Source: Deltaproteobacteria bacterium (GTDB taxonomy: Bacteria > Desulfobacterota > DSM-4660 > Desulfatiglandales > HGW-15). From it: 64,000 nt of DNA. Within the stretch, counting starts at the first letter, position 1; each line of letters begins with the position of its first letter. The stretch is from positions 1 to 64,000 of the forward strand of contig JAGVAP010000074.1 of the NCBI GenBank assembly GCA_020060215.1. Direction: 5' to 3'. The position numbers and the translations under genes were made by a program. Under the pieces are notes generated by a model. That model searched no databases, was not told where the DNA came from, and was given only the letters and a program-made list of their open reading frames with translations. This document shows positions 9,571 through 42,640 of the stretch, in pieces.

Positions 9571-10527
9571 ATGTTCAACGGATTCACCACGCCCGATTTT
9601 CCAAAGAGGCTCACCGTCGAGCTCAGCGCGGCATGCAACCTCTCCTGCGTCATGTGTCCCAGGCAGTATGTGCCGGGGGCCGACGGCTTCATGAGACGGG
9701 ACCTCTTCGAGAAGATCATCGAGGAGGTTGCGGGCCGGGAAGTGGAAGCGGTCGTCCCCTTCTTCCGCGGGGAAGCGCTGCTCCACCCTTCCTTTTTGGA
9801 GATGATGCGGTTGCTCCGGGAAAAGACCAGGGCCAGGATTCAGCTTGCAACCAACGCACTGCTTCTCTCCCGGGCCGTCTCCAAGGAACTGCTGGGGCTC
9901 CCCGTCGACTTCATCTCCTTCAGTCTGGATGCCTCGACGGAGGAGACCTACAAACAGGTCCGGCCCGGTGGAGACTTCCACCGAGTGATGGCGAACATCG
10001 AGGATTTCCTGAGGTTGAGGGGGGAAATGCCGGCCTCCTCGACCACGGTCCAGGTCTCCTTGACCGAAGGAGATCACAACCGACATGAGATCCCCTCCTT
10101 CATCGAGGGCTGGCAGCTGAAGGCGGACCGGGTCAGGATCTACCCCCGACACTCCGAGAAGGGGAGGTTCGGCAGACTCGGACCCTGCTCCTTTCTGCGG
10201 CCGGAGGCAACCAGAACGGCCTGTTTGAAACCTTTTGCGGACATGGTGATCTATGCGGACGGGCAGGTTGCGCTCTGCAACCACGACTGGAACCGCAAGG
10301 GCAAAGGAGCCATCGGTTCAGTCACCGAGCGCACCATCCGGGAGATCTGGGAAGGCCCCGCCTATGAAAGGATCCGCGGTCTACATTTGAGGCGCATGTG
10401 GAACGAGGTCGATCCATGCGGCCACTGCGATCACTGGCAGGGCAACGGGTCTGAAGCGCAGGTTGGAATCCTGATCGATGCAAGGGATGCTTTGGATTCC
10501 AAGACACAAGCGATCTTTGCGTCTTAG
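9571..10527 (+). CDS. Radical SAM/SPASM protein
   Basis: This is an iron-sulfur enzyme generating a 5'-deoxyadenosyl radical; the substrate is unknown. The radical SAM triad CNLSCVMC places Cys22, Cys26 and Cys29. Downstream cysteines 206, 218, 236 and the pair C283-x2-C286 (CGHC) form a SPASM-type auxiliary cluster region. EIWEGPAYERIRGLH is the usual SPASM tail motif. At 318 residues it is the short form, without the N-terminal domain carried by four larger paralogues in this window. The last ten codons (10501-10527) lie inside a palindromic repeat. It sits between neuB and a DegT aminotransferase. Confidence 0.88.
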   Translation: MFNGFTTPDFPKRLTVELSAACNLSCVMCPRQYVPGADGFMRRDLFEKIIEEVAGREVEAVVPFFRGEALLHPSFLEMMRLLREKTRARIQLATNALLLSRAVSKELLGLPVDFISFSLDASTEETYKQVRPGGDFHRVMANIEDFLRLRGEMPASSTTVQVSLTEGDHNRHEIPSFIEGWQLKADRVRIYPRHSEKGRFGRLGPCSFLRPEATRTACLKPFADMVIYADGQVALCNHDWNRKGKGAIGSVTERTIREIWEGPAYERIRGLHLRRMWNEVDPCGHCDHWQGNGSEAQVGILIDARDALDSKTQAIFAS

Positions 10528-10540
10528 GGTCTTTGTGGCG
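10501..10540. repeat. Palindromic CCACAAAGACAC-family repeat overlapping a coding end
   Basis: AAGACACAAG (10501-10510) pairs with CTTTGCGTCTT (10515-10525) around a short loop, and the following GGGTCTTTGTGGC matches the arm of the repeat at 6199-6265. It supplies the final codons and stop of the preceding radical SAM gene. Confidence 0.55.
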
Positions 10541-10551
10541 ATAAAACGAAC

Positions 10552-11724
10552 ATGATCCCCATCACCAAACCCGTCATGGACAGACACGACTACGAGGCGG
10601 TCCTGACGCCGCTCCGGTCCGGATGGCTTGTCCAGGGTCCCGAGGTGGCCCGTTTCGAGGAGACGGTGGCGCGCTTCTGCAATGTTCCCCACGCTGTGGC
10701 CACCACGTCGTGCACCACAGCCCTCCACCTGGCGCTCGTGGCAGCCGGAATCGGGAAAGGGGACGCGGTGCTGGTCCCCTCGTTCACCTATATTGCCACG
10801 GCCAATGCAGTGGAACATGCCGGCGCGCGCCCGGTGTTCGTGGATGTGGATCCCGATACCTTCAATATCGCCGTGGAATGCATCGAGGAGCGGATCGCCT
10901 CCTGCAAAAAGAGAACCGGCGCGACGGTCCGGGCGATCATCCCGGTCCACCTTTTCGGGCTATGCGCGGAGATGGGTCCCCTCATGGAGCTGGCCGAGAA
11001 ATATTCCCTCACCGTGATCGAGGACGCGGCCTGTGCACTGGGCTCCTCCATTCACGGCAGGCATGCGGGGAGCTTCGGACTGGCCGGGTGCTTCAGCTTC
11101 CACCCCCGGAAGCTCATCACCACCGGCGAAGGGGGGATGATCGTGACCGGTGACGAATCGATGGCCAGGAGCCTGAGAATCCTCCGTGATCACGGGGCGG
11201 AGATCACGGATCTCGACCGCCACCATGCCGGGCAGGGTGAGATGCCCTCCTTTGGCCGCCTGGGCTACAACTACCGCATGACCGACATCCAAGGGGCCCT
11301 CGGAAGCTCGCAGATGTCCAAGATCCAGCGGATCGTCGATTCCAGGAGGAGCCTGGCCCGCAACTACACCGGGTTGCTCCACGAGATTCCCTGGATCACG
11401 TTGCCGGTCTCCCCTCAGGGCTATCTTCATACCTATCAGTCCTACGTCTGCCGGTTGAACCTGGAAACCGCGAGACCGGGGAAGGTCGGCAAGGTGCGCG
11501 GCAGTCTCATGAAGCATCTCAAGGACGCAGGCATCTCTTCCCGCCCCGGCACCCACGCGGTTCACCTCCTCGGGTACTACCAGCGGAAATACGCCATCCG
11601 CCCCCAGGACTTCCCCAACTCGAGAATGGTCCACCACAGCGCCGTCACCCTCCCCCTCTATCCCGGCATGAACCACGGGGAGCAGATGCGGGTGGCGGAG
11701 GCGATCGCGTCGTTCAAACCCTAG
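10552..11724 (+). CDS. DegT/DnrJ/EryC1/StrS-family aminotransferase
   Basis: This is a PLP-dependent transaminase that aminates a keto group on a nucleotide sugar. It has 390 residues. The family opening is ITKPVMDRHDYEAVLTPLRSGW, in which the substrate loop is read through. The PLP-phosphate region has TSCTTALHLAL, the Asp pair is in VIEDAACALGS, and the Schiff-base lysine is Lys187 in FHPRKLITTGEGG. Its position after neuB and the radical SAM gene suggests it makes the amino group of the nonulosonate precursor (PseC/LegC-like role), which is inference. The start ATG 10552 has no strong ribosome-binding site; the repeat upstream may have disrupted it. Confidence 0.9.
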   Translation: MIPITKPVMDRHDYEAVLTPLRSGWLVQGPEVARFEETVARFCNVPHAVATTSCTTALHLALVAAGIGKGDAVLVPSFTYIATANAVEHAGARPVFVDVDPDTFNIAVECIEERIASCKKRTGATVRAIIPVHLFGLCAEMGPLMELAEKYSLTVIEDAACALGSSIHGRHAGSFGLAGCFSFHPRKLITTGEGGMIVTGDESMARSLRILRDHGAEITDLDRHHAGQGEMPSFGRLGYNYRMTDIQGALGSSQMSKIQRIVDSRRSLARNYTGLLHEIPWITLPVSPQGYLHTYQSYVCRLNLETARPGKVGKVRGSLMKHLKDAGISSRPGTHAVHLLGYYQRKYAIRPQDFPNSRMVHHSAVTLPLYPGMNHGEQMRVAEAIASFKP

Positions 11725-11729
11725 ATGAA

Positions 11730-11915: not shown

Positions 11916-13838
11916 ATGTGCGCTTTCGTCGGCATACTGAACCATCACGAGAAAGCGGTGACCGGCAATGTCCTGAAGGCCATGACCCGCATGGTCGCGC
12001 ACCGCGGCCCGGACGGCGAAGGGTTCTTCACCGAAGGGCCGATCGGCCTCGGGCACAGAAGGCTGGCGATCATCGATCTCTCTCCGGCGGCATCTCAGCC
12101 CATGAAAAGCGAGTGCGGCCGTTTCGTCCTCGTCTACAACGGCGAGGTCTACAACTTCATGGAGATGCGGCAGGAGCTCTCAAGGCTCGGGCACCGCTTC
12201 TCTTCGAAGTCCGACACCGAAGTGGTGCTGAAGGCCCTCATCGAATGGGGGGAAAAAGCCGTCCCGCGCTTCAACGGCATGTTCTCCTTTCTCTTCCTGG
12301 ACAGGGCGGAGCGCCGGGTGTTGGCGGCGAGGGATCGTTACGGCATCAAGCCCCTCTACATCGCCTCGCTACCCGGGGGGTATCTCTTCGGATCAGAGAT
12401 CAAGTCCTTCCTGAAGCACCCCGGTTTCAGGGTCGACCTCAATCTCCGTGCGCTCGGCGAGTACTTCACCTTCCAGAACCTGCTCGATTCCGAGACCCTC
12501 TTTCAGGATGTGACGATCCTCGGCCCCGGTTCCTACCGGGTGTATACCTACGGCGGAGACGATCCAAAATGGAGGCCGTCCCCTCCGGTCCGCTACTGGG
12601 ATTTCCATTTCGGATCGGATGCGGGGATCACCGATCCTGAAGAGGCCTCTTCGGCTGTGCGCCGGTTGATCGAGCATGCCGTCGGGCGGCAGATGGTGAG
12701 CGACGTGCCCCTGGGCAGCTACCTCTCAGGGGGCATCGACTCCGGGCTGATCGTGGCCATGGCCAGCAGGCGGGTCCCGAGGCTCACCACCTTCACCGGT
12801 GGGTTTGACCTCTCCAGCGCCCAGGGTCTGGAGGCGGGCTATGATGAGAGGGCGGCTGCAGAAGTCCTCTCCAACCAGTTCCAGACCGAACATTATGAGA
12901 TGGTCCTCCACGCGGGCGACATGGCCCACGTCATGCCAAGACTCATCTGGCACATGGAGGAGCTCCGGCTGGGCCAGTGCTACCCGAACTACTATCTTGC
13001 CCGGCTGGCCAGCAAATTCGTCAAGGTCGTTCTATGCGGCACAGGGGGCGATGAGTTGTTCGCAGGATATCCGTGGAGATACTTCGGCTCGGCCAACTGC
13101 TCTCAGAACGGCACGTTCCTTCGGAACTACTACCACTTCTGGCAGCGGATCGTTCCCGACGAACAGAAGCCCAGCCTGTTCCGGCCGAACGTCTTGAGCC
13201 ATGTCGACCCGGAGGCGAGCTTCAGGGCCTTCAGCCGGATCCTCGCCGAGAACAACCTCCCGCGAAACGGCATCGAGTCCAACATCAACCGAAGCCTCTA
13301 TTTCGAGTGCAGGAGCTTTCTCCACGGCCTGCTGATGATCGAAGACAAGCTCTCCATGGCCCATGGTCTGGAGACGAGGGTCCCGTTCCTCGACAACGAC
13401 CTGGTGGACCTCGCCTGCAGGATTCCGGTGAGGATGAAACTCAGCAACCTCGACTCCATAGCCCGCATCGACGAGAACGAGCTGGGCAAGGGGTACCGGT
13501 ACCGGATGAAGACCAGCGAAGGAAAGCGCATCCTGCGAGACGCCATTGAGTCCCTGGTCCCCGCGCGCGTGGCGGAGCGGGCCAAACAGGGCTTCAGCTC
13601 CCCGGATGTATCCTGGTACAGGGGGGAGAGCCTCGACTATGTCCACTCCCTCCTCACCAGCGGCAGCCCCTGCATCTACGAATACCTGCAGCCGGCGTAT
13701 GTCCGCGCCGTCCTGGAACAGCACCTTGCAGGCCAGCGCAACTACCGGTTGCTGATCTGGAGTTTCCTCTGCCTCGAGTGGTGGCTGAGGACCTTCATGA
13801 ACGGGACGGACGTGAACCAGCCGGGGGTCCGATCATGA
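11916..13838 (+). CDS. asnB: Asparagine synthetase (glutamine-hydrolysing) family amidotransferase, copy 1
   Basis: An N-terminal class II glutamine amidotransferase domain (nucleophile Cys2 in MCAFVGIL, then HRGPDGEGFF and YNGEVYNF) releases ammonia. A C-terminal ATP-pyrophosphatase domain with SGGIDS at 271-276 activates a carboxylate through an acyl-adenylate. It has 640 residues, full length. In glycan loci such enzymes often amidate sugar carboxylates or an amino-acid substituent rather than making free asparagine. Its stop overlaps the next gene by ATGA, so it belongs to the 11.9-22.3 kb overlapping operon. A second paralogue lies at 35374. Confidence 0.92.
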   Translation: MCAFVGILNHHEKAVTGNVLKAMTRMVAHRGPDGEGFFTEGPIGLGHRRLAIIDLSPAASQPMKSECGRFVLVYNGEVYNFMEMRQELSRLGHRFSSKSDTEVVLKALIEWGEKAVPRFNGMFSFLFLDRAERRVLAARDRYGIKPLYIASLPGGYLFGSEIKSFLKHPGFRVDLNLRALGEYFTFQNLLDSETLFQDVTILGPGSYRVYTYGGDDPKWRPSPPVRYWDFHFGSDAGITDPEEASSAVRRLIEHAVGRQMVSDVPLGSYLSGGIDSGLIVAMASRRVPRLTTFTGGFDLSSAQGLEAGYDERAAAEVLSNQFQTEHYEMVLHAGDMAHVMPRLIWHMEELRLGQCYPNYYLARLASKFVKVVLCGTGGDELFAGYPWRYFGSANCSQNGTFLRNYYHFWQRIVPDEQKPSLFRPNVLSHVDPEASFRAFSRILAENNLPRNGIESNINRSLYFECRSFLHGLLMIEDKLSMAHGLETRVPFLDNDLVDLACRIPVRMKLSNLDSIARIDENELGKGYRYRMKTSEGKRILRDAIESLVPARVAERAKQGFSSPDVSWYRGESLDYVHSLLTSGSPCIYEYLQPAYVRAVLEQHLAGQRNYRLLIWSFLCLEWWLRTFMNGTDVNQPGVRS

Positions 13839-14791
13839 ATATCCTGATGCTCACCGCAAACGACCCGGCCGGCATGGGCATCTCCTTTTGCCGGGCCATC
13901 AACAGGCAAGGCAAACACCGTTGCCGGCTCATCACGACCGAGACAAGGTACAACTTCGAATTCGAAAAGGACATCCATGTGCCGGATTGCGGGGATCTGC
14001 AGTTCGATGAGATCGAGGCCCTGCTCAGGGATGCCGATATCTTTCACTTCCATATCCTGAGCGACGAGAACATGAAGCTGGGTCCTCTCCTGGTGAGGGA
14101 TTTTGCTCACGGGAAGAAGATTCTCCATCATCATCACGGGCATCCGTATTTCAAAGAGAATCCTCATCTGTTTCGGGAAAAATACAGGCGACTCCGGCGA
14201 AAGGCCGTTGTGAGCACCCCTGATCTCCTCAAGCTCCTTCCTGCGGCACAATGGGTCCCCAACTTGGTTCCCATCCAAGATCCTCTTTATCTGCCCTTGA
14301 CGAGAGCACGAACGGGAAACGGCGCGGTGAAGGTCGGCCATTCCCCCACCAGGAGGGATCTCAAGAAGACGGACGTCTTCGAGCGGGTCATGGACCGGGT
14401 CTCGGAAAGGAACGAGGGGGTGGAGAAGGTCATCATCTCCGACACCCTCCACAGGCGTTGCCTCGAGCTCAAGAAGGAATGCGACATCTTCTTCGACCAG
14501 CTCGGTCCCTCCTTCGGCGTCTCCTCCCTGGAGGCCCTGAGCCAGGGGCTCCCCACCATTGCGCGGCTGGACGAACAGAACCTGGAGGAGATCCGGAGAT
14601 TCACGGCCACACAGACCGTTCCCTGGGTCAACGCAGAAGATGAAGAGGAGCTGGAGAGCGGTGTCGAGGAGATGGTCCTGGACCGGGGACTCCGGGAGGA
14701 GAGAGGCGCTGCGTCCAGGCGGTTCATGGAAGAGCACTGGCGGGAAGAGCAGGTGCTCGAGCGGCTGTTCGAAATCTATGAATCCCTTTAG
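13835..14791 (+). CDS. Glycosyltransferase, GT-B fold (GT4-like)
   Basis: It has 318 residues from ATG 13835, which overlaps the asnB stop (ATGA). The N-terminal half starts MNILMLTANDPAGMG, a typical nucleotide-fold donor/acceptor opening, and includes ADIFHFHILSDEN and KKILHHHHGHP. The C-terminal half has VKVGHSPTRRDLKKTD and the donor-site region DIFFDQLGPSFGVSSLEALSQGLPTIA, equivalent to the E-x7-E segment of GT4 enzymes. It probably transfers a sugar from a nucleotide donor during assembly of the island's glycan. Donor and acceptor cannot be read from the sequence. Confidence 0.78.
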   Translation: MNILMLTANDPAGMGISFCRAINRQGKHRCRLITTETRYNFEFEKDIHVPDCGDLQFDEIEALLRDADIFHFHILSDENMKLGPLLVRDFAHGKKILHHHHGHPYFKENPHLFREKYRRLRRKAVVSTPDLLKLLPAAQWVPNLVPIQDPLYLPLTRARTGNGAVKVGHSPTRRDLKKTDVFERVMDRVSERNEGVEKVIISDTLHRRCLELKKECDIFFDQLGPSFGVSSLEALSQGLPTIARLDEQNLEEIRRFTATQTVPWVNAEDEEELESGVEEMVLDRGLREERGAASRRFMEEHWREEQVLERLFEIYESL

Positions 14792-14824: not shown

Positions 14825-15649
14825 TTGCGGGTTGTCCTGATGGGCGGCAAGGATCTCGCCATCCACTGTCTCTCGTTTCTCCTGGAGTCGGGAGAAGAGA
14901 TCTGCGGAGTGGTCGTGAACCCCACCGATCGCGAGGAGGAAGGGAACTGGTACCGGTCCCTTCGCCGTTTCGCCCGCGAGAGAGGATTGCCCGTGCATCA
15001 GCCCGGGAGCGCGAACAACGAGTCCTTTGTGGAGGCCATGCGGGCAATGCAGCCGGACCTCCTCTTCTCCATGTCCTACGAGAAGATCCTCAAGAAGGCT
15101 GTCTTGCAGATCCCGCGATTCGGGGCCATGAACATCCACTTCAGCAGGCTGCCCCGATATCGGGGGTGCCTTCCGATCGTTTACGCCCTGAGCGAAGAGG
15201 AACCCGTGATCGGAGTGTCCGTTCATTATATGGACGAAGGGATCGATACGGGCGATATCGTCGCCCAGGACGCGGTGCCCGTCGCAAGAGAGGACACCGC
15301 CTTCACCCTCTACTTCAAATGCGTGGAGCTGGGGACCCGGCTCTTCCGAGAGACCTACCCCAGGATCGCCAGGGGACGAAACGCGCGCATGGCGCAGGAC
15401 AACGGCGCGGCCTCTTACCATCCGCAGCAATATCCCCATGACCGGTGGATCGACTGGAGCTGGCCCGAGCCAAGGATCCATGCCTTCATCCGGGCCCACA
15501 CCTTTCCTCCTTACCCGGGGGCTCGCTTCATGAAGGACGGATCCGAAATGGAAGTGAGGATGATCGACGGGCGATGTCTTGTGAACGGCCGGCCCCTTTC
15601 TTTTGAGGAATTTCTCCGTGCTCATCGACAGCCACGTCCACGTGGGTGA
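14825..15649 (+). CDS. Formyltransferase-family protein, copy 1
   Basis: It has a 10-formyltetrahydrofolate-dependent formyltransferase fold, as in methionyl-tRNA formyltransferase and sugar N-formyltransferases. The catalytic triad is visible: Asn103 and His105 in MNIHFSRLPRYRG, and Asp141 in MDEGIDTGDI. The classic SLLP motif is SRLP here. The C-terminal part (DRWIDWSWPEPRIHAFIRAHTFPPYPGA) is the Fmt-like subdomain. It has 274 residues from a TTG start at 14825 with GGAGGCA upstream. Surrounded by glycosyltransferase and acyltransferase genes, it most likely N-formylates an amino sugar. A second copy lies at 17455. Confidence 0.85.
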   Translation: MRVVLMGGKDLAIHCLSFLLESGEEICGVVVNPTDREEEGNWYRSLRRFARERGLPVHQPGSANNESFVEAMRAMQPDLLFSMSYEKILKKAVLQIPRFGAMNIHFSRLPRYRGCLPIVYALSEEEPVIGVSVHYMDEGIDTGDIVAQDAVPVAREDTAFTLYFKCVELGTRLFRETYPRIARGRNARMAQDNGAASYHPQQYPHDRWIDWSWPEPRIHAFIRAHTFPPYPGARFMKDGSEMEVRMIDGRCLVNGRPLSFEEFLRAHRQPRPRG

Positions 15650-16370
15650 CTGGGGATATTTCGATTCCCACGGAAGGATCTTCACCGGTTTCGCGGAGAT
15701 CCTCCGCTCCCTCGTGTCCAAGGGGTTCACAGGCGCCGTGTTGATGCCCTCTGAACTGAAGAGCAACAGGGAGATCCTGGAGGAGATCAGGAGGCACCGG
15801 GAGACCGGGCACGCGTTCAAGTCCTGGTTCTTCCCCTGGCTCAACCCCTCCAGGGACGGGGATATGGAATTCGTAAGAGACCACCTCGGGGAGATTGACG
15901 GCTTCAAGTTCCACCCCTCCCTGGACAGGGTCAGGTTCTCGGAAGAGAGCCACCGTCCTTTCCTGGAGATGGCGGCCGCACATCGCCTTCCCGTCCTGGT
16001 CCACTGCGGGGCATGGATCGAGATGGCCCACTATCGATTCGTGCTCGACGTGGCGGAGGCGTATCCGGGAATCAGTTTCATCCTCGCCCACCAGGGGGGC
16101 ACCACCTACGAGCTCAAGACCGGCGCAGCGGCCGAGGTCAAAGAAAGGGCGCTCCGGAACGTGTACTTCGATATCGCAGGAACCCATGAGTACTGGGTCC
16201 TGGAGCACTGCGTCCAGCAGTTGGGCGCCGAAAGGTTCCTGTTGGGGAGCGACTTTCCCATCCGGGATGCCGCCATCTACCCGGTCGTGCTCGACGGCGC
16301 CAGGCTCGATGAAGAAGCAAAGGATCGCATCCGTTACAGGAACATCCTGGGGCTGGTGGGGGAAAAATGA
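15618..16370 (+). CDS. Amidohydrolase-family metal-dependent hydrolase
   Basis: This is a TIM-barrel hydrolase of the amidohydrolase-2 type with about 250 residues. The first metal motif IDSHVHVG (HxH) is at the extreme N terminus. LVHCGAW and ISFILAHQGG supply further histidines, and LLGSDFPIRD supplies the catalytic Asp. The GTG at 15618, preceded by GAGGAA, is preferred over the TTG at 15603; either start overlaps the formyltransferase end. It could remove an acyl or formyl group, or a C-N linked substituent, from a sugar intermediate. Its stop overlaps the next gene by ATGA. The substrate is unknown. Confidence 0.82.
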   Translation: MLIDSHVHVGDWGYFDSHGRIFTGFAEILRSLVSKGFTGAVLMPSELKSNREILEEIRRHRETGHAFKSWFFPWLNPSRDGDMEFVRDHLGEIDGFKFHPSLDRVRFSEESHRPFLEMAAAHRLPVLVHCGAWIEMAHYRFVLDVAEAYPGISFILAHQGGTTYELKTGAAAEVKERALRNVYFDIAGTHEYWVLEHCVQQLGAERFLLGSDFPIRDAAIYPVVLDGARLDEEAKDRIRYRNILGLVGEK

Positions 16371-17458
16371 TCCTGATCCGGGAGATCGATGGTCACGACC
16401 ATGAATACGCGGGACTTTTTCAGCGGGACAACGAATCCATGCTCTACCAGAGCCCCTTCTGGCTGGACCTGCTGCAGGAGATCCTCCAGAGACCCATCAG
16501 ACTACTCTCCACATGGGAGGATGACAGGTTGACGGCAGCCATGCCGTTCATGGTCTCTCCTGCAACCGCTTCCGGACCCGTGATCAACAGTCTTCCCTTC
16601 TTCGGCAGCATCGGGGGAATCGTCTCGGACAGGACAGGGGCCGAACGAGAGGTTCATCTGAACTTGCTCCTGCAGGGACTTGTCCGAATCGCGGAAAGCA
16701 TGGAAGCGGTATCGCTCAATATCATCAGCAGACCCGCCGATCCTGTCGAGGATGCATACCGGGATTTGCTCGCCCCGGACTGGGAAGACGTCCGCACGAC
16801 CTTTGTCCTCGATCTCCCCTCCCCAACCCTCGATTCAGAGGAAGCGCTGATGGCACGGCTTGCCGGAAGGACGCGAACGGCGCTCCGAAAAGCCGCCAAG
16901 CAGGGCTTCGAGGTGGCCAGGAGCATGGGTCGGAGGGACGCCGAAGCCCTCTACGGCCTCCATTGCGAGAACATGGCCTCGATCGGCGGCATCAGGAAAC
17001 CACGCTCCTTCATGCAAGCCGTGACGAGGAGACTCGACCGGGGCTGCCCGGAGATCTGGGTGGCCAGGAGCGGCACGGAGGTGATCGCCGGTGCACTGTT
17101 CTTTGTCATGCGGGAGAGCGCGGAGTACTACATGACCGGCCTCAGCCCTGCTTTCAGGCAGTCCCAGCCGCTGAGCCTGCTGGTCTTTGAGGCGATGAAG
17201 GACCTGGCGGCAAGGGGAATCCGGCACTTCAATTTCGGCGGCACCTGGCCATCCCAGGAAGGACTCCGCAGGTTCAAGTCCGGATGGGGAGCCACGCCCC
17301 TCCCCTACCGCTACTTTGTGAAGTGCGGAAGCCGCATCGGTTCCCTCCTCCAGATGAGCGGGCCGGAGATCTCCGCGAGATACCCCTTTTTCTATGTCAT
17401 TCCATTTTCATCCCTGCACCCCTCCACCGCGGAGAGGCAAGGAGCGGTCCTTCAGTGA
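16367..17458 (+). CDS. FemAB/GNAT-like (acetyltransferase_6) acyltransferase
   Basis: This 363-residue protein has two halves like FemAB and BioF2-type acetyltransferases. The N-terminal lobe has YQSPFWLDLLQEIL and INSLPFFGSIGGIV. The C-terminal GNAT lobe has ARTALRKAAKQGFEV, EVIAGALFFV and the diagnostic ending FNFGGTWPSQEGLRRFKSGW. Family members transfer acetyl, aminoacyl or other acyl groups to amines. In this setting it is likely to acylate an amino sugar. It overlaps both neighbours by 4 bases, so it is co-translated with the amidohydrolase and the second formyltransferase. Confidence 0.8.
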   Translation: MILIREIDGHDHEYAGLFQRDNESMLYQSPFWLDLLQEILQRPIRLLSTWEDDRLTAAMPFMVSPATASGPVINSLPFFGSIGGIVSDRTGAEREVHLNLLLQGLVRIAESMEAVSLNIISRPADPVEDAYRDLLAPDWEDVRTTFVLDLPSPTLDSEEALMARLAGRTRTALRKAAKQGFEVARSMGRRDAEALYGLHCENMASIGGIRKPRSFMQAVTRRLDRGCPEIWVARSGTEVIAGALFFVMRESAEYYMTGLSPAFRQSQPLSLLVFEAMKDLAARGIRHFNFGGTWPSQEGLRRFKSGWGATPLPYRYFVKCGSRIGSLLQMSGPEISARYPFFYVIPFSSLHPSTAERQGAVLQ

Positions 17459-35361: not shown

Positions 35362-35373
35362 AAGACTGAGCCC

Positions 35374-37233
35374 ATGTGCGGCATAGGCGGCATCTTTCGC
35401 GCAAACGGCGGCCCCGTAGACCCTTCTTCGGTCAAGAGGATGTGCGACGTCATTGCCCACCGGGGGCCGGACGACGAAGGGTACTACTTTTCCCCTGCCG
35501 AGCCGGGGATCGGGCTGGGACACCGCAGGCTCGCCATCCTGGACCTCTCGGAGACCGGCCGACAGCCCATGCCGGACGAGAGCGGCAGGCTTTGGCTCAG
35601 CTTTAACGGCGAGATCTACAACCACCCGGAGATCAGAGAGACGCTCGCCGCCAGGGGCCACCGGTTCCGCTCCAGGACGGACACGGAAGTGATCCTCCAC
35701 GCCTATGAGGAGTGGGGCATAGAATGCGCCGCGCGGTTCAACGGCATGTGGGCCTTTGCGCTCTGGGACGGGGTCAGGGACCGGCTCTTTCTCTCCCGGG
35801 ACCGCTTCGGGGTGAAGCCCCTCTACTACCTGGCCCGCGAGGACGGCTTCGTCTTCGGCTCCGAGATCAAGGCCATCCTGGCGATCCGGCCGGAGGAACG
35901 GGTCCCCAATCTACCCTACCTTGCCGCCTTCCTGGCCTACGGCATGATGGACCATGGAGAGGAGACCTGCTTCCGCAACATCCGTTCCCTGCCGCCGGGG
36001 CACTCCATGGTGGTGACGGCGGACGGGCTCAAGACCGTACGATACTGGGATCTCGGTCAGGAGGCGGCAGCGGGGGTTGACGGCACGGCGGGCCCTGGCC
36101 GCCGGGGCCTGGAAGAGCGTTTTCTGCACCTCCTGAAAGATGCGGTCCGGCTCCGCCTCGCCAGCGATGTGGCCGTGGGCGCCTGCCTGAGCGGCGGGCT
36201 GGACTCCAGCGCGATCGTCTCCCTGGCCTCGTCCTGTGTCCAGGGTCTCCCTACCTTTACCTCCGTGTTCGAGGATCCGTGCTGCGACGAGTCCCGCTTT
36301 GCGGCGCAGGTGGAAGAGCGATACCGCACCCGGCCTCATCATGTGCGGCCGGATGCACAGGGATTCATCGAAGCCCTGTCGCGCATGATCTGGTTCCAGG
36401 ACGAACCCGGCGCCGCCTATGGCATATTCCCGCAGTGGAAGGTCATGGAAGAGGCATCCCATCACGTCCGGGTCATCCTGGACGGACAGGGAGGAGACGA
36501 ACTCCTGGCCGGGTACCATCATTTCCTCCCCCACTACCTCCTGACCCTTCGAGACGACCCCTCTGTGGAGAGAGGGGATTTCGTGAAGACCCGTGACCTC
36601 CTGAAGAGGCTCTACGGCCCTCAGTTGGCCTCCCCCTTTCTCCGTGGAAGCGACGATCCGGAGTACCGGAAGGCCGCGATCGCTCCGGATCTGCGAACGC
36701 AGGTGCCGGCCGGGAGCCGAGACTTCGCAGGTCCCTTCGCCCATCACCTGGACAATGTCCTGTACAAGGCCCTCACCAGGGACATCCTCCCCGGGCTACT
36801 CCACTACCAGGATCGCATGAGCATGGCCTTTTCGCTTGAATCCAGGGTCCCCTTCCTGGATTACAGGCTGGTGCGTTTCTGCTTCACCCTCCCCTACGGC
36901 TCAAAAATACGGCAGGGCATGACCAAGGCCATCCTCCGGGACGCCGTCGCCGGGATCGTGCCCGAAACCATCCGGTCGCGAAAGGACAAGATGGGCTTTC
37001 CGGCGCCCCTTTCCGGGTGGATTCGCGGGGAGCTTCGGCCCCTCGTCCACGACCTCCTCCTCTCGGACCGTCCCGCGGGCCGCGGCGTCCTGGATCCGGT
37101 CACCGTCAAGAAACGGTTAGAGGACCACATGAATGCGTCCTGCGACCATACCTGGGAGATCTGGAGGTGGCTGTCCCTGGAGGTCTGGTTCAGGGAGTTC
37201 ATAGACGGCCCGGCAGGGGGAACGCGCCGCTGA
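35374..37233 (+). CDS. asnB: Asparagine synthetase (glutamine-hydrolysing) family amidotransferase, copy 2
   Basis: It has 619 residues starting at ATG 35374 so that the nucleophile is Cys2 (MCGIGGIF); a longer in-frame extension to 35224 is repeat sequence. The glutaminase domain has HRGPDDEGYY, FNGEIYNH and RFNGMWAFALWD. The synthetase domain has SGGLDSS at 273-279, LDGQGGDELLAGYHHF and QDRMSMAFSLESRVPFLD. It is complete and closer to canonical AsnB than copy 1. It overlaps the downstream glycosyltransferase (TGATG), so it acts with glycan genes. An amide on a uronic acid made by the nearby Wbp/Wlb-like enzymes is a reasonable hypothesis. Confidence 0.93.
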   Translation: MCGIGGIFRANGGPVDPSSVKRMCDVIAHRGPDDEGYYFSPAEPGIGLGHRRLAILDLSETGRQPMPDESGRLWLSFNGEIYNHPEIRETLAARGHRFRSRTDTEVILHAYEEWGIECAARFNGMWAFALWDGVRDRLFLSRDRFGVKPLYYLAREDGFVFGSEIKAILAIRPEERVPNLPYLAAFLAYGMMDHGEETCFRNIRSLPPGHSMVVTADGLKTVRYWDLGQEAAAGVDGTAGPGRRGLEERFLHLLKDAVRLRLASDVAVGACLSGGLDSSAIVSLASSCVQGLPTFTSVFEDPCCDESRFAAQVEERYRTRPHHVRPDAQGFIEALSRMIWFQDEPGAAYGIFPQWKVMEEASHHVRVILDGQGGDELLAGYHHFLPHYLLTLRDDPSVERGDFVKTRDLLKRLYGPQLASPFLRGSDDPEYRKAAIAPDLRTQVPAGSRDFAGPFAHHLDNVLYKALTRDILPGLLHYQDRMSMAFSLESRVPFLDYRLVRFCFTLPYGSKIRQGMTKAILRDAVAGIVPETIRSRKDKMGFPAPLSGWIRGELRPLVHDLLLSDRPAGRGVLDPVTVKKRLEDHMNASCDHTWEIWRWLSLEVWFREFIDGPAGGTRR

Positions 37234-38429
37234 TGAAGATCGGCATGATCCTCGAGCGGGACTTCCCCACCACACCGCCGGACATCCGTGTGGAGAAGGA
37301 GATGCGCTGCCTCCTGCAGGGGGGCCACGAGGTGGAGCTTCTTTCCCTCCGGATCACGTCGATCCTGGAGGAGGACCGGTTCCTGGCGCGGATCCCCGTC
37401 TTCAGAATCCCCATCCCGATGCTGCGCATCCGGGAGTGGGACCCTGCGTCCGTGGAACGCCACTTTCATTCGGACCTTTCCCCCTGGGTCCAGGCCGTCG
37501 AAGCGTTCATCTCCAACCGGCGCGTGGATGCGCTCCACGTCCATGATCTTCCCCTGGGATGGGTCTCCGCCTGTGCGGCCTCGAGGAGGGGAATCCCCGT
37601 GGTACTGGATTTGCATGAGGTATATCCGGACCTGGTCCGCTTCATGAGACCGGACGGCGCCGGCGCGTGGAGTCCCGGGGAGTGGGTCTCGGAACTTGAG
37701 AAGGAGTGTCTGGGATTGGCGGATCGGATCATCGTGACCGTGGAGGAGTCCAGGCAGCGGCTGGTCCGGATGGGTGTGCCCGAAGGGAAGATCACCGTGG
37801 TCATGAACACCGAAGCGATAGAGAGCATGAGACCAAGCACCCCTGTTCGCCCGCCCCTCCCCCGGCTCGAGGGGAAATGCGTGGTGACCTATGTGGGCGC
37901 ATTCGGAGAGGTCCGGGGGCTCGACCGGCTCATCCGGGCAATCCGTTCGATCTCCGCCGAAAACCCCGAGGTCCATCTCCTCCTCGTGGGCGGCGGATAC
38001 AACGAGTCCGACCTGGCGGCCCTTGTACGGGATCTCCGGATGGAGGAGAGGGTGACGATCACGGGGTGGGTCCCATTCGCGGAAGTTCCCCACCTGATCG
38101 GCATGTCCCACATCTGTGTCGTGCCCCACGTGAAGAGTCCCTTTACGGACACGACGGTGCCTCACAAGCTCTTCCAGTACATGCTCATGGCCAAACCGGT
38201 GGTCGTCTCCGATGCGGCCCCCCTGGTGAGGATCACCCGGGAGTGCGAGTGCGGCATGGACTACCCTTCCGAAGATGTGCAATCCCTGGCCCGATGCCTG
38301 GAACTGCTGGTGAAGGACGCGGACAGGCGCCGAAGGCTGGGAGAGAACGGGCGCAGGGCGGCCGTCGGCCGATACCACTGGGGAAAGGACGGGGAGAATC
38401 TCCTGAGTGTCTATGCCCATCTCCGATGA
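37233..38429 (+). CDS. Glycosyltransferase family 4 protein
   Basis: It has 398 residues with a GT-B fold. The N-terminal domain starts MKIGMILERDFPTTPPDIRV, with VDALHVHDLPLGW and VVLDLHEVYPD. The C-terminal domain has VVTYVGAFGEVRGLDRLIRA, VHLLLVGGG, RVTITGWVPFAEVPHLIGMS and PHKLFQYMLMAKPVVVSDA. The glutamate-rich E-x7-E site is replaced by a His/Lys-Leu-Phe-Gln-Tyr version common in this branch. It starts within the asnB stop and overlaps the acetyltransferase. It is likely to transfer a sugar to a lipid-linked or protein-linked acceptor; the donor is unknown. Confidence 0.88.
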   Translation: MKIGMILERDFPTTPPDIRVEKEMRCLLQGGHEVELLSLRITSILEEDRFLARIPVFRIPIPMLRIREWDPASVERHFHSDLSPWVQAVEAFISNRRVDALHVHDLPLGWVSACAASRRGIPVVLDLHEVYPDLVRFMRPDGAGAWSPGEWVSELEKECLGLADRIIVTVEESRQRLVRMGVPEGKITVVMNTEAIESMRPSTPVRPPLPRLEGKCVVTYVGAFGEVRGLDRLIRAIRSISAENPEVHLLLVGGGYNESDLAALVRDLRMEERVTITGWVPFAEVPHLIGMSHICVVPHVKSPFTDTTVPHKLFQYMLMAKPVVVSDAAPLVRITRECECGMDYPSEDVQSLARCLELLVKDADRRRRLGENGRRAAVGRYHWGKDGENLLSVYAHLR

Positions 38430-38898
38430 CGTGACCCTGGGAAAAGACGTGATCATCCCCCACCCGGAGCTGGTCAACCTCTACGGTTGCAGGATCGGGG
38501 ATGGGACCAAGATCGGCACCTTTGTGGAGGTCCAGAAAAACGTTCTCATCGGAAGTCTCTGCAAGATCTCGTCCCACACCTTCATCTGCGAGGGAGTCGC
38601 CGTCGAGGACCGGGTGTTCATCGGACACGGCGTGATGTTCATCAACGACCCCTACCCGCGCGCCACATCCGGGGGCAGGCTCCAGACCGAGGCCGACTGG
38701 GCCCCGGTCCCCACACGGGTCCGGGAAGGGGCATCGATCGGGAGCGGCTCCACCATCCTCTGCGGCGTGACCATCGGCAGGAACGCCATGGTGGGCGCCG
38801 GGGCCGTGGTCACCGGGGATGTGCCGGATCATGCGATCGCGGCCGGGGTCCCCGCCAGGGTGGTCGGGGATGTCAGAGAGGAGGGAAAGAGGCGATGA
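38413..38898 (+). CDS. Hexapeptide-repeat sugar N-acetyltransferase (WbpD/WlbB-like)
   Basis: It has 161 residues (GTG 38407 is an alternative start) and overlaps the glycosyltransferase end. Left-handed beta-helix repeats run throughout: IGDGTKIGTFVEVQKNVLIG, VFIGHGVMFINDPYPRA, then VREGASIGSGSTILCGVTIG and NAMVGAGAVVTGDV. The insert with FINDPYPRATS and the tail AAGVPARVVGDV match the acetyltransferase of the UDP-2,3-diacetamido-2,3-dideoxyglucuronate pathway. Together with the next two genes (dehydrogenase and aminotransferase) it completes the oxidise-aminate-acetylate series at carbon 3. It transfers acetyl from acetyl-CoA. Confidence 0.87.
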   Translation: MPISDDVTLGKDVIIPHPELVNLYGCRIGDGTKIGTFVEVQKNVLIGSLCKISSHTFICEGVAVEDRVFIGHGVMFINDPYPRATSGGRLQTEADWAPVPTRVREGASIGSGSTILCGVTIGRNAMVGAGAVVTGDVPDHAIAAGVPARVVGDVREEGKRR

Positions 38899-39986
38899 TC
38901 GGCGTCGGCGTGATCGGATACGGATACTGGGGGCCGAACCTGGTCCGCAATTTCTACGAGTCGGCCGGATCGAGGGTGGTCTCGGTCTGCGACCTGAACC
39001 CCGACAGGCTCACCAGAGTGGGGACCCGCTACCCGAACATCGGGACCACCCGCGATGCCATGGACCTGATCCGCGACAGCAAGGTGGACGCGGTCGTGAT
39101 CTCCACGCCCGTTTCGAGCCACTTCGACCTCGCCCTGAAGGCGCTCCGCTGCGGCAAGCACGTGCTGGTGGAAAAGCCCCTGACCTCCACCAGCGACCAG
39201 GCCATGAGGCTCATCGACGAGGCGGCCCGCCGCAGACTGGTGCTCATGGTGGACCACACCTTCGTCTACACCGGCCCGGTCCGGAAGATCAGGGAGCTGG
39301 TCCACAGCCACAGCCTCGGGGAGATCTACTACTTCGACTCGGTCCGCATCAATCTCGGCCTGTTCCAGCACGATGTGAACGTCGTCTGGGACCTGGCGGT
39401 CCACGACCTCTCCATCATGGACTACGTCCTTCCCACAAGGCCCTGCGCCGTGTCCGCCACGGGGATCAGCAACATCCCGGGGGAGCCGGAGAACGTCGCC
39501 TTTCTCACGAGCTTTTTTGAGGGGAACCTGATCGCCCACGTCCACGTGAACTGGCTGGCGCCGGTGAAGGTCCGGCGCACCATCATCGGCGGGAGCAGGA
39601 AGATGGTCCTCTATGACGACCTGGAGCCGAGCGAAAAGATCAAGGTCTATGACAAGGGGATCCAGGTGAACAACGAGGCGGAGAGTGTCTATCGGATGCT
39701 GATCAGCTACCGCACGGGCGAGATGCACGCCCCAACCTTCGACACCACCGAGGCCCTTCAGCGGGAGGTCTCCCACTTCATCGAATGCGTCGAGGGGAAC
39801 GGGGTTCCGCTGACGCCGGGGGAGGCGGGACTGAGGATCGTTCGCATGCTGGAGGCGGCCGTCCGCTCCATGAGGGCGAGCGGTCGACCCGTGGAGCTGG
39901 ACCTGGAGAGCCGATCAGGACGGCTCCCCCCCATGCGCTTTCGCGGCTCAGGCATGCAGGAGCACCCGTTACCGGGCCTGTCCTGA
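38895..39986 (+). CDS. Gfo/Idh/MocA-family sugar-nucleotide 3-dehydrogenase (WbpB/WlbA-like)
   Basis: It has 363 residues, coupled by ATGA to the acetyltransferase. The NAD-binding start is IGVGVIGYGYWGPNLVRNFY, the EKP motif is LVEKPLTSTSDQAM, and the catalytic-face motif is WDLAVHDLSIMDYVLP. The GYGYWGPNLVRNF variant is typical of enzymes that oxidise the 3-hydroxyl of UDP-GlcNAc or UDP-GlcNAc uronic acid. It would give the 3-keto sugar for the DegT aminotransferase encoded convergently at 40083-41189. A WbpA-type UDP-GlcNAc 6-dehydrogenase is not in the window, so the uronic-acid step is either elsewhere or absent. Confidence 0.87.
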   Translation: MIGVGVIGYGYWGPNLVRNFYESAGSRVVSVCDLNPDRLTRVGTRYPNIGTTRDAMDLIRDSKVDAVVISTPVSSHFDLALKALRCGKHVLVEKPLTSTSDQAMRLIDEAARRRLVLMVDHTFVYTGPVRKIRELVHSHSLGEIYYFDSVRINLGLFQHDVNVVWDLAVHDLSIMDYVLPTRPCAVSATGISNIPGEPENVAFLTSFFEGNLIAHVHVNWLAPVKVRRTIIGGSRKMVLYDDLEPSEKIKVYDKGIQVNNEAESVYRMLISYRTGEMHAPTFDTTEALQREVSHFIECVEGNGVPLTPGEAGLRIVRMLEAAVRSMRASGRPVELDLESRSGRLPPMRFRGSGMQEHPLPGLS

Positions 39987-40082: not shown

Positions 40083-41189
40083 TTACGAGGAGCGTGCGGC
40101 TCTCAGGACGTCCGATACATAGGTGATCTGCTCCATGGTCAACTCCGGAAACATGGGCAGGCTCAGGATCTCCTGGGAGCACCTGACGGCCGCCGGGAAG
40201 TCGGCGGTTGTGTGTCCCAGGTGCCGGTAGGCCTGCAGCATCGGAAGGGGCGTCGGGTAGTGGATCCCGGCTGCGATCCCCTTCTCGGCGAGGGCTTTCA
40301 TGACCCGGTCGCGGTCCGGCACCCTCACGACATAGAGGTGGTAGACATGTTTGAATCCGTCCATTTCTGCGGGGAGAACGATCCCGCTTCCGTCCAGGAG
40401 CCTCGTGTAGGCGCGGGCCGCCGCCCTTCTCGCCGCCACCCACTGGTCGAGAAACCTCAGCTTCACCCGCAGGATCGCCGCCTGCAGGCCGTCGAGCCTG
40501 CTGTTCGTCCCCTCGATCTCGTGGTCGTACTTGCCCATGCGGCCGTGGTTCGAGAGGAGCCTGATCTTGTCGGCCAGAGACGAATCATCGGTCACGACCG
40601 CACCCCCGTCCCCATAGGCCCCGAGATTCTTTCCCGGATAGAAGCTGAAGCAGGCCGCATGGCCCCATGTCCCCACCCGCTTCCCATGGACTTCGGCGCC
40701 GTGGGCCTGGGCCGCATCCTCGATGAGGTAGAGGCCTCTCTCCCTTGCGACGGCCGTGAGCTCCGGCATGTCCGCGGGCAGACCATAGAGATGGACAGGG
40801 ATGATGGCCCTGGTCCTGGAGGTGATCACCCGCCTCACGCGCTCGCAGTCGATGTTTCGGGTGGAGAGGTCGCAGTCGGCGAACACGACCCTTGCACCGG
40901 ACAGGGTGACGGCCTCGGAAGTGGCGATGAAGGAATTGGCCGCCGTGATCACCTCGTCCCCGGGGCCGATCCCCAGACCCCTCAAGGTGAGGCAGAGGGC
41001 ATCGGTGCCGTTGCCGACCCCGACACAGTGGGTTGCGCCGCAGTACCGGGCGAAATCCTTCTCGAAGGCGTCCACGTATTTTCCTCCGACGAATGCGGCA
41101 TCCTCGATCACGTCCGAGATCGCGCGGTCGATCTCGGTCTTGATGGTCCGATACTGGGCCTTGAGGTCCACAAAGGGCACGTTCATCAT
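40083..41189 (-). CDS. DegT/DnrJ/EryC1/StrS-family aminotransferase (WbpE/WlbC-like)
   Basis: It has 368 residues and is the only minus-strand gene inside the island. It opens with NVPFVDLKAQYRTIKTEID, the signature of the WbpE/WlbC subgroup, followed by FVGGKYVDAFEKDFARYCGA and VGNGTDALCLTLRGLGIGPG. The PLP lysine is Lys187 in FYPGKNLGAYGDGG, and EDAAQAHGAE provides the Asp. It would transfer an amino group to the 3-keto sugar produced by the neighbouring dehydrogenase. AAAGGATGACAGG precedes ATGATG, so the start is 41189 or 41186. It shares a 95-bp divergent region with the B12 radical SAM gene. Confidence 0.92.
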   Translation of the reverse strand: MMNVPFVDLKAQYRTIKTEIDRAISDVIEDAAFVGGKYVDAFEKDFARYCGATHCVGVGNGTDALCLTLRGLGIGPGDEVITAANSFIATSEAVTLSGARVVFADCDLSTRNIDCERVRRVITSRTRAIIPVHLYGLPADMPELTAVARERGLYLIEDAAQAHGAEVHGKRVGTWGHAACFSFYPGKNLGAYGDGGAVVTDDSSLADKIRLLSNHGRMGKYDHEIEGTNSRLDGLQAAILRVKLRFLDQWVAARRAAARAYTRLLDGSGIVLPAEMDGFKHVYHLYVVRVPDRDRVMKALAEKGIAAGIHYPTPLPMLQAYRHLGHTTADFPAAVRCSQEILSLPMFPELTMEQITYVSDVLRAARSS

Positions 41190-41284
41190 CCTGTCATCCT
41201 TTCGCCATCGTTAGCGGCACCGGACTCCCGCAGAAGAGCCTCCGAGTTTGAGGCAAAACCCTCGACCTGTCAAGGGATAGGCTT

Positions 41285-42640
41285 ATGAAGATCCTCCTCG
41301 TCAATACGCCCATCCGGCTCGACGCAAGGCCCAACTGCATCCCCTGTGGCCTGGCCACCATGGCAAACGTCCTGCGAGACGCCGGCTACGAAGTGGAGAT
41401 CCTGGACCTCAACGCTCTCCGGCCCTCCCGGGAAGAGACCCTGGAGACCCTCCGCTCCAGGTCGTGGCACCTGGTCGGCGTCTCGGGGCTGATCACCACC
41501 TATCCGTTCCAGAGATGGCTGATCTCCGAGCTCAAGAGACTCAACCCGGATGCGCCCGTAGTCAGCGGCGGCGGTCTTGCCACCACGAGCAGCGATCTGC
41601 TGTTCGAGCGGACCCCCCTCGATATCGCGGTGCTCGGCGAAGGGGAAGAGACCATGCCGGAGCTCTGCCGCGCAGTGGAGGAAGAAGACGACCTCAGGCG
41701 GATCTCCGGCATCCGGTTCCGGCAAGGGGAATGGATCGTCACCAACCCCCGGAGAAAGAACATCCCGGACCTGGACCGCATCCCCTTCCCTGCCTGGGAC
41801 CTCCTGCCCATGGACATCTATCTCCGAAACCCCATCTGGGGGGATGTGGCCGGGAATTCCTCGGGCTTCAGAAAAGGGGTCAGGGTGACCAGGAGCATGA
41901 ATATCATCTCCAGCAGGGGATGCCCCTTCTCCTGCAACTACTGCTATCACCTCTTCGGGCGATCGAGTTACCGATTCCGCTCGGCCCAGAATGTCGTCGA
42001 TGAGATCGAAACCCTGGTGGACCGCTACGGAACGGACTTCATCGGGTTCGTGGACGACAACATGATGGCCTCTGAAAAGAGGCTCCTTGCATTCTGCGAT
42101 CTGATGGAGAAGAGGAAGTTCCCTCTGACATGGGGGTGCCATGGGAGGGTGACGAGCGCCAAAGCCGACATCCTCCAGCGGATGGCCGAAACCGGTTGTG
42201 TCTGGATCGGATACGGGATCGAGTCCGGCAGCCAGGAGATCCTGAACGCCATGAACAAGAAGTCCACCGTTGCCCAGGCAAAGGAAGCCATACGAAATAC
42301 GAGACAAGCCGGTATTTATCCCAACACCACCTTCATCTTCGGATACCCCGGGGAATCCCGGCGCTCCATCCAGGAGACGATCGATTTCAAGAAGGCGATG
42401 GGGATCGAGTGCGGCTCCTTCTTCGCCACACCCTACCCCGGGACACCGCTCTACGAGAAGGTGAAGGGGCGAATCAGGGATCAGGAAGAGTTTGTCAGAC
42501 GTCTTGGGAACGCTACGGAGTTCACGATCAATCTCACCGGGTTCCCGGATCAGGAGTTCCTTGAGTTGAAAAAGGCCATGGATGGAAACCGTGATGTGAT
42601 GGAAGCGGCGGATTGCGGGTTGCGGGTGGCGGCCTGCTGA
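41285..42640 (+). CDS. B12-binding-domain radical SAM protein
   Basis: It has 451 residues. The N-terminal cobalamin-type domain has KILLVNTPIRLDARPNCIPC, less the last two residues, GLATMANVLRDAGYEVEILD, VSGLITTYPFQRW and VSGGGLATTSSDLLFE. The radical SAM triad is Cys213, Cys217 and Cys220 (CPFSCNYC), then FIGFVDDNMMASEKRLL, GYGIESGSQEILNAMNKK and FIFGYPGESRRSIQE. The sequence around the barrel is close to the other two B12 members. Its last codons are Ala/Gly/Arg-rich, next to decayed sequence. It is the first plus-strand gene after the divergent aminotransferase. Confidence 0.87.
   Translation: MKILLVNTPIRLDARPNCIPCGLATMANVLRDAGYEVEILDLNALRPSREETLETLRSRSWHLVGVSGLITTYPFQRWLISELKRLNPDAPVVSGGGLATTSSDLLFERTPLDIAVLGEGEETMPELCRAVEEEDDLRRISGIRFRQGEWIVTNPRRKNIPDLDRIPFPAWDLLPMDIYLRNPIWGDVAGNSSGFRKGVRVTRSMNIISSRGCPFSCNYCYHLFGRSSYRFRSAQNVVDEIETLVDRYGTDFIGFVDDNMMASEKRLLAFCDLMEKRKFPLTWGCHGRVTSAKADILQRMAETGCVWIGYGIESGSQEILNAMNKKSTVAQAKEAIRNTRQAGIYPNTTFIFGYPGESRRSIQETIDFKKAMGIECGSFFATPYPGTPLYEKVKGRIRDQEEFVRRLGNATEFTINLTGFPDQEFLELKKAMDGNRDVMEAADCGLRVAAC

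Follow-up and report, generated by a model that had tools for sequence, protein, structure and literature searches.

What do nine radical S-adenosylmethionine (SAM) enzymes do when they are encoded together within 33 kb of bacterial DNA? The question is raised by the first 64,000 nucleotides of contig JAGVAP010000074.1 (assembly GCA_020060215.1), analysed here in full and referred to as the window, for which an initial annotation had described such a set in a surface-glycan island. The reading that we moderately favour is that this sulfate-reducer-like member of the Desulfobacterota carries a hypervariable island for flagellin glycosylation, in which a nonulosonic acid (NulO) pathway and a Maf-type transferase are combined with sugar-tailoring radical SAM enzymes. 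It draws on computed gene content, synteny, the flagellin linkage of relatives, a conserved cassette, sequence affinity to the enzyme BtrN and the predicted N-terminal fold of one protein, rS3.

The set itself is real, dense and functionally coherent. Pfam, at its curated cut-offs, and translation agree with the initial annotation on six Radical_SAM plus SPASM proteins (genes starting at 9571, 19905, 22341, 23801, 25264 and 31008; rS1 to rS6) and three Radical_SAM plus B12-binding proteins (29535, 33771 and 41285; rB1 to rB3), and the CX3CX2C motif is kept, as had been claimed, in 6/6 of the former and 3/3 of the latter, with all nine frames intact. Pairs of the same type share 24–33% identity, so the nine are not recent copies of one another. 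The density is indeed unusual: at the rates of five relatives (PF04055 counts of 70 in 7.0 Mb, 60 in 4.2 Mb, 112 in 7.6 Mb, 38 in 3.8 Mb and 43 in 3.0 Mb), 0.33–0.49 genes would be expected in 33 kb (Poisson 1e-10 to 3e-9, the rate being borrowed from relatives). It should be noted that the enrichment P values reported here assume independent loci, an assumption that related genomes violate. The surrounding genes encode a dehydratase, a fusion of NeuB with an isomerase, DegT aminotransferases, AsnB-type amidotransferases and formyltransferases (two of each), FemAB-type and WbqC proteins, a cytidylyltransferase resembling NeuA, a hexapeptide acyltransferase and a Gfo/Idh enzyme, several glycosyltransferases and methyltransferases, a sulfotransferase, tetratricopeptide repeat (TPR)-glycosyltransferases and a Maf-type protein (Table 1). 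The placement of neuB and neuA inside the interval was half right, as neuB (7355–9250) lies just to its left and the neuA-like gene (26739–27533) lies within it, matching PF02348 and, weakly, the PseF model (102.6 bits, cut-off 205.7).

Relatives define the borders of the island and tie it to flagellin. A scan of genomes with an alignment of the NeuB fusion gave 58 loci, 23 of which (L001–L021, L024 and L025; 57–84% identity) were taken as the same fusion; genes and radical SAM counts in relatives were obtained with a simple gene caller and with two profiles of our own, and with Pfam only where named. HGW-Deltaproteobacteria-15 (G001), the closest relative by this fusion, has the same housekeeping left flank as the window (S66 peptidase, CoaX, FolP and FtsH at 66, 86, 79 and 92% identity; in the window the first two were assigned by Pfam, the last two by eye) and the same island start (helix-turn-helix protein 86%, dehydratase 79%, NeuB 84%, then rS1 64% and DegT 74%). 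Its interior is largely unlike that of the window and holds two other SPASM genes, while its right part carries rB3 (80%), the FAD enzyme (60%), the gene at 49156 (75%) and then a Maf-type gene, with flagellin and FliD about 8 kb beyond. G008 has the flank and start of the window, four radical SAM genes including rB3 (67%, as for the rB3 homolog of L015), a Maf-type gene and flagellin one gene further along. With the island ends conserved, the interior swapped and the relatives' islands ending at flagellin, the product most likely decorates flagellin; as the window itself closes with a Maf-type gene and the islands of the relatives extend to such genes and to flagellin, the island is best read as one for flagellin glycosylation, and the proposal of a surface-glycan island is strengthened.

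The window holds the most radical SAM genes of the loci examined, although other loci show the pattern too. At least one match lies within at most 10 kb in 13 of the 23 NeuB-fusion loci (one, in L016, weak). Nine longer stretches, several of which end at contig ends, were counted by motif or own profiles and hold 4 genes (G001), 2 (G002), 3 (G010), at least 2 (G005), 1 (G006), 4 (G020), 2 (G021), 4 (G008) and at least 1 (G003). The excess is clear in G001, G008 and G020, where 0.54, 0.52 and 0.19 were expected, and small in G010 (0.74 expected, P 0.04) and G002 (0.38, P 0.06). By our own profiles, eight radical SAM genes lie in 20 kb amid glycosyltransferase-like genes in L118 (genome G181), and L115 (G408) has six over about 14 kb that also contain NeuB and NeuA; the density that the initial annotation did not recognise as described thus makes the window the richest of these loci and not a unique one.

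The strongest new point is a cassette of rS1, DegT and AsnB in flagellin-linked islands. rS1 and DegT occur together in 14/14 loci with a close rS1 homolog (the window, 11 chromosomal loci and two plasmid records), with an AsnB-type gene within the stretch in 12 of the 14. The pair accompanies NeuB in the window, L001, L004, L006, L012, L013 and L025, and stands without NeuB in the fetched 12–20 kb of L109–L113, that is in 5/12 chromosomal loci; three genomes of the latter (G193, G376 and G221) have NeuB elsewhere, and two (G092 and G273) have none at the threshold used. rS1 and DegT are adjacent in every chromosomal locus but L006 (about 3 kb apart). AsnB, directly after DegT in the window, is found in the fetched stretch of 9/11 chromosomal loci, about 10 kb further on in L001, and the L025 contig ends soon after. 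No rS1 match lies in the fetched stretch of two cultured strains with the NeuB fusion, Desulfobacter vibrioformis (L014) and Desulfofustis glycolicus (L017). In L111, flagellin is one gene from DegT, with rS1 next. Four plasmid records match rS1, three of them from Lawsonia, one of which was inspected: the plasmid of Deltaproteobacteria bacterium Smac51 has rS1, DegT and AsnB in the same order (by others' annotation; ~42% identity), as does that of Lawsonia intracellularis, where two further genes separate AsnB from DegT (~42%). At E 1e-70, a close rS1 is found only in Anammoxibacter among the 294 genomes of its phylum, and its planctomycete island (G010, L068–L070) shares w28326, w32498, w35440, w37233, w38413, w38895 and w13835 with the window at 52–69% identity; horizontal transfer of island genes between phyla is the simplest reading. 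On a contig of Candidatus Anammoxibacter (G010:C108), at least 14 Radical_SAM genes are among the matches listed within 175 kb (~22–198 kb), a dense region that we take to be possibly ladderane-related.

What the cassette may do is suggested by the nearest solved relative of rS1. A profile of six rS1 orthologs (A6) finds BtrN first in the PDB (2e-17, next 1.6e-9), with BlsE among the matches, and BtrN (4m7t) is also the nearest solved protein of rS2, rS5 and rS6, which share its C-X17-C, C-X2-C auxiliary pattern. The auxiliary-cluster cysteines of rS1 align with the C-X17-C-X44-C-X2-C of BtrN, and each of the six SPASM proteins in the window has C-X17-C-X43 to 48-C-X2-C; rS1 thus combines CX3CX2C with a single four-cysteine auxiliary cluster of BtrN-like spacing, though the pattern is common. 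Seven cysteines are invariant in the six orthologs, all accounted for as cluster ligands, so that these hold no spare conserved cysteine as hydrogen donor. Known epimerases of this radical SAM type use an extra cysteine, and in the pathway of BtrN itself a DegT-type aminotransferase acts alongside it. The title of a HygY paper, as it stands in the reference list of PMC10991966, fits the former point, and PMC10991966 itself describes BtrN as the 2-deoxy-scyllo-inosamine (2-DOIA) dehydrogenase, which belongs to butirosin biosynthesis. BtrN differs in serving an antibiotic aminocyclitol pathway and no surface glycan, and rS3–rS6 have an extra N-terminal part. Because the extra cysteine is missing, a dehydrogenase is favoured for rS1, and the affinity to a sugar-alcohol-type dehydrogenase suggests oxidation followed by amination: the cassette probably converts a sugar alcohol into an amine. 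From homology and linkage we infer every reaction and substrate, as well as flagellin as the glycan carrier in this organism. rS1, with its one auxiliary iron-sulfur cluster, would abstract hydrogen from a sugar, free or nucleotide-linked, and so oxidise one of its C-OH groups to a ketone; this ketone would be transaminated by DegT; and AsnB would add glutamine-derived nitrogen, perhaps as an amide. Dehydratase, NeuB fusion and cytidylyltransferase would form the NulO pathway, the other five SPASM enzymes may act on further sugars by oxidation, epimerisation or the removal of groups, and the three B12 enzymes may add methyl groups or remove hydroxyls. The nearest solved protein of rB2 is AprD4 (6fd2) of apramycin biosynthesis, and rB2 falls under the cut-off of the NCBIfam AprD4 model (NF033070, 123.2 bits against 500).

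Four of the SPASM enzymes carry a further clue in their N-terminal part. The AlphaFold2 (AF2) model of the rS3 N-terminal domain has a nucleotidyltransferase GT-A-like fold and matches nucleotidyltransferases among the hits listed in fold searches, and a profile of the domain scores 177.7 bits with rS4 and 179.8 with rS6 (both in the profile) and matches rS5, which is outside it, weakly (E 3e-6). The domain, which rS4, rS6 and weakly rS5 share, is predicted in rS3 to be a degenerate nucleotidyltransferase and may serve to bind the nucleotide moiety of the substrate. The cytidylyltransferase signature loop after the first strand (AARGGSRGLPGKN in the NeuA-like protein of the window) is absent from rS3 and four close homologs, Pfam finds no match in the four isolated N-terminal domains, and hhalign against NeuA-like proteins is not significant. 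The spiro-SPASM model TIGR04321, the best NCBIfam match of rS2 and rS5 and the second of rS1, likewise describes long SPASM proteins with the radical SAM part near residue 225; it differs in that the window proteins fall far under its 250-bit cut-off and their N-terminal part is unmatched. For rS3, searches of viral contigs and genome contigs gave no relatives. Two Brachyspira hyodysenteriae plasmids (NZ_CP046929.1 and NZ_CP046933.1) carry annotated SPASM proteins with distant similarity to rS3 (26%).

Several observations weigh against the preferred reading of a flagellin-glycosylation island with sugar-tailoring enzymes. No flagellin gene lies inside the 64,000-nt window, which stops at 64000, and no NCBIfam model among the best 25 per protein reaches its cut-off for any of the nine. 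The four-cysteine form without extra cysteines occurs in 12/19 other SPASM proteins of relatives (six have the extended form, one neither), and as a proof of sugar chemistry the pattern was rejected on this count. One of these proteins also finds BtrN first, so that the affinity marks a broad clade. These controls were 20 of 59 SPASM matches, taken outside the NeuB-fusion stretches, L138 giving no scorable protein; two of three high-scoring ones (L131, L132 and L136) stand beside NeuB/NeuA-like genes and the third amid glycan-looking genes (BLAST, by eye), which leaves no clean negative control for the PDB ranking. Sequence-profile support for the N-terminal fold is weak (SpsF-like, hhalign P 0.0015 at best). 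Lastly, the cassette belongs to close rS1 homologs and is not the rule in the wider rS1 family: of 14 loci there in which the centre gene was called, L117 alone has a DegT-like gene no more than three genes away, and L121 has a DegT-like fragment.

A possible but doubtful alternative is that rS1 is an epimerase or decarboxylase like NeoN, HygY or BlsE and that DegT receives its ketone from a Gfo/Idh enzyme or the 4,6-dehydratase. The window has both of these enzymes, BlsE is among the PDB matches of rS1, and a Gfo/Idh-hexapeptide fusion adjoins the cassette in L110 and L113, with a Gfo/Idh-like protein of the same length in L013; these proteins could supply the ketone instead of rS1, which counts against the oxidation proposed above. 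The six orthologs lacking a spare cysteine argue for a dehydrogenase, and neither a Gfo/Idh nor a dehydratase match above 90 bits is present in the fetched stretch of L109, L111 and L112.

It is unlikely, if somewhat less easily set aside than what follows, that the same sugar-tailoring enzymes serve an O-antigen, capsule or exopolysaccharide and not flagellin. The window without flagellin is consistent with this, as is the wider rS1 family, which often lies amid glycosyltransferases, with L112 near a MurJ-type flippase and flagellar genes not in view. Its 106 tallied neighbours at 18 rS1 genes include 15 Radical_SAM, 8 Asn_synthase, 5 DegT, 6 Glycos_transf_2 and 5 Glycos_transf_1 matches (106 of 108 proteins, one very long and one very short, the L121 fragment, being omitted; 18 of 20 loci, the central gene being uncalled in L109 and L119). 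Flagellin is favoured by the two syntenic relatives whose islands end at it, by the Maf-type gene at the right end of the window and by L111, with flagellin one gene from the cassette.

The wider rS1 family also bears on the NulO link, for which the initial annotation had proposed a comparison of homologue neighbourhoods. Six of 55 members (in 47 genomes, at most five candidates being scored per genome) have a NeuB gene no more than 20 kb away against 0.76 expected, G001 being excluded from the count because it was found through NeuB, and Maf-type genes occur in the relatives. rS1-family enzymes are thus often in glycan clusters, and their NulO association is real but a minority one. The claim of radical chemistry on nonulosonic sugars is not supported as worded, as the cassette also stands without a NeuB gene nearby and most of the wider family lies away from it. 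Tentatively, and as a proposal that we consider rather unlikely, such islands could be a general radical route for diversifying flagellar and other surface sugars: a BtrN-like cassette spread by transfer and a new radical SAM family, in which an inactive cytidylyltransferase domain is fused on to hold CMP-/UDP-sugars, would oxidise, epimerise or methylate activated sugars, nonulosonic or related ones, at their C-H bonds before transfer to flagellin.

SPASM enzymes are often peptide maturases, and the set could modify proteins or peptides, either flagellin side chains or a ribosomally synthesized and post-translationally modified peptide (RiPP), a reading that we regard as improbable. In its favour and against sugar tailoring, the rS3 profile finds CteB, a sactipeptide enzyme, first in the PDB, and structural ranking of rS3 ties sugar and peptide enzymes (BlsE 20.4, BtrN 20.1, SuiB 19.9, ChlB 19.8). 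A 55-aa cysteine-containing open reading frame (ORF) lies in the 9251–9570 gap just upstream of rS1. It was rejected as a RiPP precursor, being part of a DNA tandem repeat with similar ORFs in all three forward frames, and no precursor peptide was recognised in the nine gaps scanned for ATG-started ORFs of at least 20 aa, which hold other small ORFs besides; this agrees with the initial annotation. Six of the nine radical SAM genes (rS2–rS6 and rB1) overlap or sit within about 60 bases of both neighbours, none of the RiPP SPASM maturase models of NCBIfam among the best 25 per protein exceeds its cut-off, the N-terminal domain of rS3 appears nucleotidyltransferase-like and the cassette partners are DegT and AsnB. 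The signs favour sugar over peptide substrates, in line with the sugars, sugar nucleotides or glycosylated protein first suggested. That unrelated radical SAM genes, several of them idle, accumulated by transfer is very improbable: the interior differs greatly between relatives and cross-phylum transfer is likely, but nine intact frames with their motif, a conserved cassette and at least one radical SAM gene in each of the nine NeuB-found longer stretches (small as the excess in G010 and G002 is) speak against accident.

Flagellin or flagellar glycosylation islands with NulO pathways and Maf are described in Geobacillus (PMC5109656) and Clostridium (PMC13317340). They share variable genes beside flagellin (here in relatives), NulO genes, Maf, methyltransferases and formyltransferases with the island described here; the word 'radical' is absent from the main text of both papers, whereas the window has nine radical SAM genes and the cassette. 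As a precedent, one observation detracts from the novelty of the island: the Campylobacter jejuni capsule cluster, in the accessible text of PMC8743553, has a 'radical SAM metalloprotein' gene amid capsule glycosyltransferases and methyltransferases. It differs in being the single such gene, with no flagellin island or cassette described in that text. A literature search of titles and abstract openings, with most subscription papers outside its reach, found no description of glycosylation islands rich in radical SAM genes. To our knowledge, radical SAM enzymes that act on carbohydrates have mostly been described from antibiotic pathways. If correct, the cassette in flagellin-linked islands would extend this chemistry to bacterial surface glycans and could account for sugars beyond the reach of ordinary nucleoside diphosphate (NDP)-sugar enzymes. 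Being short and also present in named records (the Smac51 plasmid), it is directly testable.

Table 1. Features of the island with positions in the window, strand and basis of assignment (SDR, short-chain dehydrogenase/reductase; GT, glycosyltransferase).
Feature	Position	Strand	Basis
Winged-helix (MarR-like) protein, Methyltransf_14-like C-terminal part, island start	5564..6187	+	Pfam
NAD-dependent 4,6-dehydratase-like SDR (gmd/LegB-like)	6307..7353	+	Pfam; NCBIfam gmd 161.7 bits, LegB 140.3, both under cut-offs
NeuB + SAF + xylose-isomerase-like TIM barrel fusion	7355..9250	+	Pfam, PF03102 264 bits
rS1, SPASM-type radical SAM, BtrN-like, partner of DegT	9571..10527	+	Pfam; profile A6 against PDB
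DegT/DnrJ/EryC1 aminotransferase (PseC/LegC-like)	10552..11724	+	Pfam; NCBIfam PseC 326.4, cut-off 423.5
AsnB-type glutamine-dependent amidotransferase	11916..13838	+	Pfam; TIGR01536 433 bits, above cut-off 267
GT-B-like glycosyltransferase candidate, no Pfam match	13835..14791	+	Homolog in fetched stretch of 18/23 NeuB-fusion loci
Formyltransferase	14840..15649	+	Pfam
FemAB/GNAT-type acyltransferase	16367..17458	+	Pfam
Formyltransferase, second copy	17455..18510	+	Pfam
WbqC-like protein	19186..19908	+	Pfam
rS2, SPASM-type radical SAM	19905..20936	+	Pfam; top PDB match BtrN 3e-7
rS3, SPASM-type radical SAM, predicted N-terminal nucleotidyltransferase-fold domain (~residues 1–172)	22341..23804	+	Pfam; AF2 model, fold searches
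rS4, SPASM-type radical SAM, N-terminal domain as in rS3	23801..25267	+	Pfam; top PDB matches BlsE, DesII
rS5, SPASM-type radical SAM, N-terminal extension weakly matching rS3 domain	25264..26724	+	Pfam; BtrN 2.5e-4
NeuA/PseF-like cytidylyltransferase	26739..27533	+	Pfam PF02348; NCBIfam
GT4-like glycosyltransferase candidate	28326..29525	+	Pfam under cut-offs
rB1, B12-binding radical SAM	29535..30998	+	Pfam
rS6, SPASM-type radical SAM with N-terminal domain	31008..32501	+	Pfam; top PDB match BtrN 4e-12
Protein without Pfam match above cut-off; 61% identical homolog in Anammoxibacter island	32498..33664	+	
rB2, B12-binding radical SAM	33771..35078	+	Pfam; nearest solved protein AprD4 5.6e-29
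AsnB-type amidotransferase, second	35224..37233	+	Pfam
GT4 glycosyltransferase	37233..38429	+	Pfam
Hexapeptide acyltransferase (WlbB-like by context)	38413..38898	+	Pfam
Gfo/Idh/MocA oxidoreductase (WlbA-like by context)	38895..39986	+	Pfam, NCBIfam
DegT aminotransferase, adjoins Gfo/Idh and hexapeptide genes	40083..41189	-	Pfam
rB3, B12-binding radical SAM	41285..42640	+	Pfam; kept in right part of relatives' islands
FAD-dependent oxidoreductase, after rB3 in G001 and G008 as well	45987..47531	+	Pfam
TPR / glycosyltransferase / methyltransferase multidomain protein	54480..60164	+	Pfam
Maf-type flagellin glycosyltransferase candidate (MptE-like domain)	61889..63721	+	Pfam PF01973; 39% homolog in G008

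The stretch 5564–63721 is encoded on the plus strand throughout, save for the DegT gene at 40083–41189, the only sizeable minus-strand gene called within the island, and one doubtful 60-codon call. The winged-helix protein at its start is likely a regulator of these islands; a homolog lies upstream of NeuB in 20/23 NeuB-fusion loci, and the remaining three loci start too near NeuB. The NeuB fusion is a distinct and widespread protein family, present in Desulfobacterota and others, with 118 of 120 among the matches listed (that of the window included) covering at least 99% of the query. Homologs of the glycosyltransferase candidate at 13835–14791 sit downstream of NeuB in most relatives, and the G008 homolog of the Maf-type protein additionally matches Maf_flag10_N. 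A UDP-GlcNAc 2-epimerase fragment at 50875–51288 (137 aa, profile positions 122–198 of 347) is probably a remnant. Just upstream of rS1, at 9352–9488, lie two 68-bp copies (97% alike) of AATGTCC-type repeats, and a 13-base motif of this repeat, AATGTCCARTGYC, recurs in three G001 stretches.

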